A stretch of DNA of 64,000 nucleotides from positions 186,001 to 250,000 of the forward strand of contig NZ_BCNO01000002.1 in the NCBI RefSeq assembly GCF_001514535.1, read 5' to 3'. Source of the DNA: Thermodesulfovibrio aggregans. Its GTDB lineage: Bacteria > Nitrospirota > Thermodesulfovibrionia > Thermodesulfovibrionales > Thermodesulfovibrionaceae. The position numbers were made by a program, and so were the translations under genes. The notes below the pieces were generated by a model. It was not told the DNA's origin. It worked only from the letters and a program-made list of their open reading frames with translations, and searched no databases. Of this stretch, positions 26,544 to 28,697 are shown in pieces (position 1 is the first letter of the stretch; every line of letters begins with the position of its first letter).

Positions 26544-26559
26544 GTTACCATAAAGTAAC
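26544..26559. promoter_or_regulatory. Upstream palindrome 1 of the sigma-54 promoter
   Basis: GTTAC-N6-GTAAC. Its centre is 33 bp (about three helical turns) from the centre of the second copy. It lies about 109 bp upstream of the predicted transcription start and is a candidate enhancer-binding-protein site. Confidence 0.6.
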
Positions 26560-26575
26560 AAAAATTATACTAAAA

Positions 26576-26593
26576 TGTTACCAAAAGGTAACA
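26576..26593. promoter_or_regulatory. Upstream palindrome 2 of the sigma-54 promoter
   Basis: A perfect inverted repeat, TGTTACC-AAAA-GGTAACA, about 76 bp upstream of the predicted start. It shares the GTTACC half-site with palindrome 1. Confidence 0.65.
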
Positions 26594-26632: not shown

Positions 26633-26649
26633 TTGGCACGCATATTGCA
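26633..26649 (+). promoter_or_regulatory. Sigma-54 (-24/-12) promoter
   Basis: TTGGCACG followed by CATA and TTGCA. GG (26635-26636) and GC (26647-26648) are separated by exactly 10 bp, and only one position departs from the YTGGCACGRNNNTTGCW consensus. Transcription should begin near 26660. Confidence 0.88.
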
Positions 26650-26674: not shown

Positions 26675-26685
26675 AAGGAGGTGAT
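26675..26685 (+). promoter_or_regulatory. Orphan full-length Shine-Dalgarno sequence in the leader
   Basis: AAGGAGGTGAT is complementary to 11 bases of the bacterial 16S 3' tail, yet no ATG, GTG or TTG with a meaningful frame follows. A second, normal AAGGAGG precedes the true ATG at 26738. It may be a ribosome standby site or the remnant of a leader ORF. Confidence 0.4.
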
Positions 26686-26737
26686 AAAATAATTTCTTCT
26701 ATTAACTCTAAAAAATTTCAAGAAAGGAGGTTGAAGT

Positions 26738-28480
26738 ATGGTAGAACAAAAAAAGGGTGTTAGTGAGGACTGGCTGGCGTTCTGGCTGGCAATTGTTATC
26801 TTCTTAATTTCACTACTTGCTTACACAGGTACGGACCCGCTTGGCTGGGTTGTCTCAACAAAGGAATGGACAGATTCAAGCAAAGCAATAGCGCCAACAG
26901 GAAAGATGTATCAATCTGTTAAAGGTGAGATTACAAAGATTGATGGAAACAAGCTCACTATCAAGAAAGCCGATGGCAAAGAGGAAACTGTAACTGTATC
27001 TGATCCAACGAAATATAAAGTTGGTGATACTTACGAAAAGAAAGGTCTTTCAGGTTTTACTTCACTGGTGCTTACCTATATCTTTATGGCTGTTGTATTC
27101 TCAATAGGTGCAGCACTCATGCGGGCAAACGTAGTCAAATTTAACATAGGATTCTTCTTCATCTTCTGGTTAAGTTATCTCTGCTGGTTTATTGGTCACT
27201 ATGCCTACTTTGCTGCAACAGATCCCAAAAAATTCAATATTCCATGGTCATTGAAACTCACAGGTGAAGGTGGTTTTATTTTTGCCCTATTACTTGGCTT
27301 GATAGTTGGTAACTTCTTCAGAGGGTTCGCAAAATTTATAGGTGAGGCATTAAAACCTGAGTTTTATATTAAAACAGCCATTGGTTTGATGGGTGCATTA
27401 CTTGGTCTGAAATCAGCTCAAGCGTTTGGACTTGCTTCAGCAGTTCTTTTCAGAGGACTCTGCGCTATAATTGAAGCATATCTTATTTACTGGGCACTTG
27501 TTTACTTTATCGCAAGAAAGTGGTTTAAATTCAGCAAAGAATGGGCAGCTCCTCTGGCATCTGGAATCTCCATATGCGGTGTTTCTGCTGCCATTGCAAC
27601 TGGTGGAGCAATAAAGGCAAGACCTGTTGTCCCAATAATGGTTAGCTCCCTTGTAGTTATATTTGCTGTTGTTGAGCTGATTATTCTTCCATTCTTTGCT
27701 CAAGCTTTCCTGTGGAAAGAGCCAATGGTTGCTGGTGCATGGATGGGTTTGGCAGTTAAAACAGACGGTGCAGCCTTTGCATCCGGTGCAGTTGTTGATG
27801 CACTTATAAGAGCTAAGGCTGAAACTGCTGCTGGTATTAAGTATGAACCCGGATGGATGCTAATGGCAGCATCTACAACAAAGCTATTTATTGACATATT
27901 CATCAGTATCTGGGCATTCATTCTTGCCTATATCTGGTGTGCAAAGATTGAATGTAAACCTGGTGAAAGAGTTTCAGCTGTAGAGATATGGAGAAGATTT
28001 CCAAAGTTCGTAATGGCATATGCTATTACATTCATAGTAATTCTTCTTATTTCTGCTCCACATGCTCCTAAAATTGAGCCCGTAGATGCACAAATTAAGA
28101 AGATTAATAAGGAAATAACATCAATCGAAAAACAGCTTGCAACAGTTACAGATGAAACTCAGAAAACTCAGCTTGTAGCAAAGATTGATGAGAAAAAGAA
28201 ACAGATCAAAGACCTTGAGGCAAGCATAAAAGATTCAAAGAAAATAATATCTCAGACAAGCACTGCTACAGCTGGAACAAATGCTTTAAGAGTGCTATTC
28301 TTCTTAATCACATTCTTTACGATCGGAGTAATGTCTGATTTCAGAAAGCTCTGGGAAGAGGGAATTGGAAGACTTGCTGTGGTTTATCTCATCTGTCTAT
28401 TTGGATTCATTCTCTGGATCGGATTGTTAATATCCTATATATTCTTCCACGGAGTAAAACCTCCGGTAATAACTGGTTAA
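26738..28480 (+). CDS. Enlarged YeiH-type putative sulfate exporter (PF03601 family)
   Basis: Polytopic inner-membrane protein. The core has the family signature GISICGVSAAIATGG (276-290) and surrounding helices. Ordinary members have about 330-350 residues; this has 580. Two insertions explain the excess. A small beta-rich, DUF5666-like segment (about 60-100, with VKGEITKIDGNKLTI) sits between membrane segments 1 and 2. A charged coiled coil (about 448-503) sits between two late segments. 'Sulfate exporter' is a family label with little biochemical support; sulfite, thiosulfate or another anion are possible. It is expressed from the sigma-54 promoter together with the small membrane protein 13 bp downstream. 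Confidence 0.8.
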   Translation: MVEQKKGVSEDWLAFWLAIVIFLISLLAYTGTDPLGWVVSTKEWTDSSKAIAPTGKMYQSVKGEITKIDGNKLTIKKADGKEETVTVSDPTKYKVGDTYEKKGLSGFTSLVLTYIFMAVVFSIGAALMRANVVKFNIGFFFIFWLSYLCWFIGHYAYFAATDPKKFNIPWSLKLTGEGGFIFALLLGLIVGNFFRGFAKFIGEALKPEFYIKTAIGLMGALLGLKSAQAFGLASAVLFRGLCAIIEAYLIYWALVYFIARKWFKFSKEWAAPLASGISICGVSAAIATGGAIKARPVVPIMVSSLVVIFAVVELIILPFFAQAFLWKEPMVAGAWMGLAVKTDGAAFASGAVVDALIRAKAETAAGIKYEPGWMLMAASTTKLFIDIFISIWAFILAYIWCAKIECKPGERVSAVEIWRRFPKFVMAYAITFIVILLISAPHAPKIEPVDAQIKKINKEITSIEKQLATVTDETQKTQLVAKIDEKKKQIKDLEASIKDSKKIISQTSTATAGTNALRVLFFLITFFTIGVMSDFRKLWEEGIGRLAVVYLICLFGFILWIGLLISYIFFHGVKPPVITG

Positions 28481-28493
28481 GGGAGGTGTTAAA

Positions 28494-28664
28494 ATGGCAG
28501 AAGAGCCAAAACTTACTGAAGAGCTTAAAAAAATGGAAGCTGAATATGAACCTTTACTTCCTATTGAAAAAAAGCTCATTGTATGGAGCATAGGGCTTGG
28601 TATAGCTTTACTGTTCATTCTCGTTTGGGTCAGCTATACTTTCTTCCCGGCATCTCACGGATAA
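28494..28664 (+). CDS. Small single-pass membrane protein (56 aa)
   Basis: A 56-residue ORF with a GGGAGG site 8 nt before its ATG. An acidic/lysine-rich N-terminus (residues 1-25) is followed by one membrane segment (about 29-49, IVWSIGLGIALLFILVW) and the end FPASHG. It begins 13 bp after the transporter and is followed at once by a terminator, so the two genes form a closed operon. I do not recognise a family. It may be an accessory subunit of the transporter. Confidence 0.75.
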   Translation: MAEEPKLTEELKKMEAEYEPLLPIEKKLIVWSIGLGIALLFILVWVSYTFFPASHG

Positions 28665-28672
28665 ACAATAAT

Positions 28673-28697
28673 AGCGGGAGGGTTTCCTCCCGCTTCT
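28673..28697 (+). terminator. Intrinsic terminator of the YeiH-type operon
   Basis: A perfect 9-bp stem, AGCGGGAGG and CCTCCCGCT, with a GTTT loop, starts 9 nt after the small-protein stop. The following tail is T-rich but short (TCT). Confidence 0.85.

Follow-up and report, generated by a model that had tools for sequence, protein, structure and literature searches.

Proteins of the PSE/YeiH family (PF03601, TIGR00698, TC 2.A.98) occur in Escherichia coli and Salmonella, and sulfite resistance of the latter depends chiefly on yeiH (PMC12880088). The accessible text of an earlier classification places PSE in the CPA/AT superfamily and describes a PSE_2 topology class of 11 helices, with two additional N-terminal helices on the PSE core (PMC8396727). 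In the sulfate reducer Desulfovibrio vulgaris, the PSE operon DVU0542–0545 encodes a 133-aa membrane protein besides the transporter and is controlled by the sigma-54 regulators DVU0539 and DVU0946 (PMC3333781, PMC4641369); disruption of DVU0543/0544 is beneficial under molybdate (PMC10102598). A study that surveyed the sulfate transporters of sulfate-reducing bacteria left PF03601 out of its search (PMC5840216).

The locus described here lies in a stretch of 64,000 nt from Thermodesulfovibrio aggregans (hereafter the window). An open reading frame on the forward strand (26738–28480) encodes a 580-aa transporter, which had been assigned to the YeiH type in an initial annotation made from the sequence alone. 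The assignment holds: the protein matches PF03601 with an E-value of 1.2e-20 (74.1 bits, for a cut-off of 24.5), although it reaches only 37.5 bits with TIGR00698, whose cut-off is 232.6 bits. It aligns with E. coli YeiH with 28% identity over 158 columns (profile alignment E 3e-5) and is the sole PF03601 protein of the complete 2.0-Mb genome. Within the YeiH/PSE family it is a divergent member. The core helices and the first reentrant motif are retained (SICG...LAT in YeiH, SICGVSAAIAT in the window transporter), and a periplasmic C-terminus is expected, as in YeiH. In contrast, the second motif has changed from GSTVHEVAQ in E. coli YeiH to GLAVKTDGA, followed by a further alanine, in the window transporter (VHEVAQ versus VKTDGA), which suggests an altered binding site. 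As a side observation, the transporter genes of two relatives are each interrupted near the N-terminal part by one in-frame stop, in L034:799-1129 (also in L123) and in L136:14226-14573, which could be assembly errors or genuine losses.

An excess of about 230 residues over the usual family member had been noted, and indeed E. coli YeiH, with 349 aa, is shorter by 231 residues. In the alignment of the two proteins, only about 100 of these residues belong to the two insertions, the remainder consisting of additional N-terminal helices and longer loops. We built an AlphaFold2 model on 32 homologues (pLDDT 76.6, pTM 0.72). When it was submitted to Foldseek, the citrate symporter CitS and Na+/H+ antiporters ranked first, with weak matches (best E 2e-3, low TM-scores); this ranking agrees with the CPA/AT assignment of PSE in the accessible text of PMC8396727. 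Searching solved structures with the transporter sequence returned coiled-coil matches only. The additional N-terminal helices recall the PSE_2 class, whose description, in that same accessible text, includes neither the insertions nor the microprotein presented below.

The model bears out the beta-rich domain and the coiled coil that had been read between membrane segments. The first insertion (residues 51–101, nucleotides 26888–27040 on the forward strand) lies between membrane helices 1 and 2 and is predicted as strands with a pLDDT of about 75–80, the beta domain itself accounting for approximately 45 residues. The second, a coiled-coil hairpin of approximately 58 residues (residues 441–499, nucleotides 28058–28234, forward strand), is placed between two C-terminal membrane helices, and its helical hairpin at 443–496 is continuous with the flanking helices. 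Both would be periplasmic, judging from the positive-inside rule and from YeiH, whose C-terminus is predicted to be periplasmic (PMC12880088). Their distribution among relatives is uneven. Both are present in the 53 rows of group A, with a nearly constant length, and neither in the eight rows of group B, which are 55–66% identical on the shared columns. The beta domain is also absent from group Bp and from locus L139, which has the coiled coil, while loci L079 and L080 combine the absence of the beta domain with a longer coiled coil. A constant co-occurrence of the two insertions is thereby ruled out by L139 and by the relatives with the coiled coil alone. The insertions are modular and would make up a periplasmic appendage that the transporter can have or lack. 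In a tree of the transporter core, groups C and D split off with full support, and group A may have a single origin, which is compatible with this tree.

The transporter gene is followed, after a gap of 13 nt, by a gene for a 56-aa single-pass membrane microprotein (28494–28664, forward strand) with the motif EYEPLLPxExxLIxWS...FFPxxH and a probable N-in/C-out orientation. The claim that such a protein is encoded here was correct. Substitutions at the three codon positions among nine congeners number 50/16/181, which indicates purifying selection, and codons with a single difference are synonymous in 151 cases versus 30 non-synonymous ones; the microprotein is a genuine coding sequence. It is present in a single copy in the genome and matches no Pfam or NCBIfam model, despite its recurrence in dozens of genomes. 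Across two phyla, almost every group A or B locus that is intact has a homologue adjoining the transporter, usually 4–50 nt downstream; in group C, a distant clade, a recognizable homologue (EPWxPIExKLVxWS) is found upstream of the transporter, not downstream. The conserved gene pairing suggests that the two proteins bind each other in a physical complex. The initial annotation had put its emphasis on the insertions, but relatives 55–66% identical that lack one or both of them still have the microprotein, so that it is the microprotein that constitutes the common hallmark of the system; the insertions are excluded from this role by these relatives and by L139 with its missing beta domain.

Upstream of the operon, a sigma-54 −24/−12 promoter, TGGCACGCATATTGCA (26634–26649, forward strand), is the only exact consensus match within the window, in support of the sigma-54-driven operon proposed earlier. 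The site is aligned in eight of nine congeners with GG-N10-GC kept. Of 91 upstream regions, 32 contain such a site, as against 2 of the 91 when the reverse strand is read. Two inverted repeats of the form GTTAC-N6-GTAAC, with no strand assigned and conserved in congeners, precede it: GTTACCATAAAGTAAC (26544–26559) and GTTACCAAAAGGTAAC (26577–26592), both putative response-regulator sites. This pattern occurs at only two places in the 2.0-Mb genome, 33 bp apart and both ahead of the transporter operon. About two occurrences are expected by chance in 2 Mb, and a reversed control gave three, so it is their pairing that is telling. A related pattern, GTTNCC-N4-GGNAAC, is present in 15 of 65 group A/B upstream regions (0–1 for control patterns), and in seven cases its sites are paired about 30–34 bp apart. 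Two Shine–Dalgarno-like sequences (26675–26686 and 26725–26730) lie about 50 nt apart ahead of the transporter start, the upstream one being kept in congeners; no consistent leader peptide was found. At the other end of the operon, which had been described as closed, a hairpin on the forward strand (28673–28694; −18.2 kcal/mol, z −4.7) is a probable terminator, but its T-run is weak on this strand and a terminator-like call was obtained on the reverse strand only.

What might act on these repeats is indicated by relatives in which the transporter gene has a two-component system nearby, composed of a histidine kinase with a Tll0287-like/sCache_heme domain (CxxCH) and an NtrC-type sigma-54 response regulator. 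Both genes lie within 6.5 kb of the transporter in 19 of the 58 group A/B loci and 8 of the 13 group C loci. The window repeats resemble the sites ahead of relatives that adjoin this two-component system, and L139 combines an exact GTTACCTTTAGGTAAC site ahead of the transporter with an adjacent heme kinase/regulator pair. The genome of the window has an orthologous pair (G000:C1:743850-747151, corresponding to L118:5851-9152), which is unlinked to the transporter operon. Its kinase (L118:5851-7785) contains CLICHG, a CxxCH motif, in its periplasmic domain and is 63% identical to a kinase matching PF11845 with an E-value of 5e-37, and its regulator (G000:C1:745781-747151) shares the recognition-helix sequence LGISRKxLWxK with the transporter-linked regulators. 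Control of the transporter operon by this unlinked pair is thus well supported, as far as sequence comparison can tell, by the paired repeats, the linked pairs in relatives, the shared recognition helix and the L139 site.

The window itself offers no conserved coding neighbour, the operon being surrounded by DUF763 and DUF3617 genes and by the ATP synthase operon. The transporter was counted at E-values below 1e-80 in genomes with and without dsrA, among which are draft genomes with gaps. In Nitrospirota, 53 of 173 dsrA-positive genomes carry the transporter versus 6 of 223 dsrA-negative ones, and in the sample of a second phylum the counts are 52 of 190 versus 3 of 205 (Fisher p of about 2e-15 and 3e-15, respectively, with phylogeny ignored). 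The link to sulfate reducers suggested earlier is therefore borne out as a strong overlap with dsrA carriers in two phyla, the majority of dsrA-positive genomes being nevertheless devoid of the transporter. At L135 (996-7913), the transporter–microprotein pair precedes dsrAB at a distance of about 390 nt and in the same orientation; on the opposite side of the pair, a gene matches the TsoB/DsbD family below the cut-off. In about a dozen loci, a rhodanese with an N-terminal signal-like stretch is encoded directly upstream of the transporter; no relative of the L038 rhodanese was found in the genome of the window. Other neighbours also recur: the gene of a conserved 87–93-aa protein with no Pfam match follows that of the transporter at a distance of 190–340 nt and is in most cases read from the other strand (L038:7870-8133 and 16 other loci), and group C loci have a DUF5395 gene directly upstream (L083:6357-6683 and others) and a 58–65-aa protein with ITESTATQFV downstream.

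Compared with YeiH, the window transporter thus stands out by its 580 residues, its extra N-terminal helices, its two insertions and its microprotein partner, and its operon by sigma-54 control in place of the LysR-type YeiE. DVU0542–0545 and its paralogous operons are comparable: a sulfate reducer encodes a PSE transporter in one operon with a small membrane protein of a single helix, under a sigma-54 response regulator and with a sigma-54 promoter and upstream activator sites, here read from sequence signals. As far as a comparison by description goes, the D. vulgaris partner is larger (133 aa versus about 56), the operon also encodes universal stress proteins and its regulator has multiple targets. 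Group D PSE loci of the same phyla (L095, L097, L098, L099 and L088) also have a PSE core with a small membrane protein encoded downstream; they differ in sharing about 30% identity and in having a partner of 91–123 aa, in which we detected no similarity to the microprotein. This group D partner (for instance L095:7997-8272) has a motif around ESGIDAxAxYYTExEE. Calling the locus an undescribed system was therefore too strong, since sigma-54 PSE operons of D. vulgaris have been published and sulfite resistance in Salmonella has been connected with a YeiH homologue. Given the Desulfovibrio operons with their small membrane proteins, the transporter–microprotein pair is a variant within a known kind, and it has the look of a sulfite-handling form of an established transporter family rather than a wholly new machine.

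We tentatively propose, at a little short of an even chance, that the locus encodes an elevator-type transporter of two subunits, which would handle sulfite or a similar sulfur oxyanion, probably as an exporter, under heme-sensor/sigma-54 control. The PSE/YeiH-type elevator protein and the single-pass microsubunit would together form a secondary transporter that carries the oxyanion through the inner membrane, probably to the outside, in bacteria whose respiration yields sulfite as an intermediate, with the beta domain and the coiled coil as an optional periplasmic attachment. The heme-c sensor kinase would phosphorylate the NtrC-type regulator, which would bind the two inverted repeats and activate the sigma-54 promoter. 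The physical complex, the substrate, the direction, the energy coupling, the binding of the regulator and the signal of the sensor are all deduced here. Sulfite is the most likely reading of the substrate, with chances somewhat below even if the direction and the complex are counted in; it leans on the analogy with YeiH, a distant homologue, at 28% identity across 158 columns, whose second motif reads HEVAQ where the window transporter has KTDGA. The benefit of disrupting DVU0543/0544 under molybdate (PMC10102598), the control of lactate genes by the D. vulgaris regulators (PMC3333781) and the many dsrA-positive genomes devoid of the transporter weigh against the proposal, and NO sensing by a signalling-type sCache_heme domain (PMC12889525) does not point directly to sulfite.

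Instead of exporting cytoplasmic sulfite, the transporter might take up or exchange a different sulfur oxyanion, be it thiosulfate, sulfate or periplasmic sulfite released by rhodanese; this appears unlikely. The rhodanese genes directly upstream in several loci would suit it, as would the scoring of T. yellowstonii as devoid of SulP and DASS sulfate transporters (PMC5840216), but the family is known for putative exporters and the Salmonella phenotype is sulfite resistance. Moreover, most dsrA-positive genomes lack the gene, so that the transporter cannot be a general sulfate importer. We regard as quite improbable a carrier of carboxylates or other non-sulfur anions, such as lactate or pyruvate, for which the dsr link would reflect only the lifestyle of the hosts. 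The closest solved folds do include citrate symporters, as weak matches, and in D. vulgaris the regulators of the PSE operons bind and control lactate-utilization operons as well (PMC3333781); yet the rhodanese and dsrAB neighbours, the sulfite phenotype of YeiH and the near absence of the transporter from dsrA-negative genomes in two phyla all argue against it. Finally, a nitrosative or redox-stress module, in which the heme sensor would detect NO and the transporter would relieve the consequence of a blocked sulfite reductase or move nitrite, draws on the adjacent kinase with its Tll0287-like/sCache_heme domain and CxxCH, a signalling-type sCache_heme domain being an NO sensor that binds NO tightly (PMC12889525), but it has little probability, as this binding is known from one signalling-type protein only and NO-detoxification genes are not prominent among the recurrent neighbours of relatives.

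Returning to the proposed sulfite transporter, it is possible, though on balance to be doubted, that the locus represents an unrecognized two-subunit PSE class with an essential subunit of approximately 55 residues, dedicated to keeping sulfite in balance in dissimilatory sulfate and sulfite reducers, under heme-c/sigma-54 control and with an optional beta/coiled-coil module. Sulfite is a toxic central intermediate in sulfate respiration, and to our knowledge the mechanism by which it is moved in sulfate-respiring bacteria has not been described. A conserved and probably sensor-controlled transporter with its own microsubunit would be a concrete candidate for this movement, and it is the microsubunit and the dedicated heme-sensor circuit that are most worth following.
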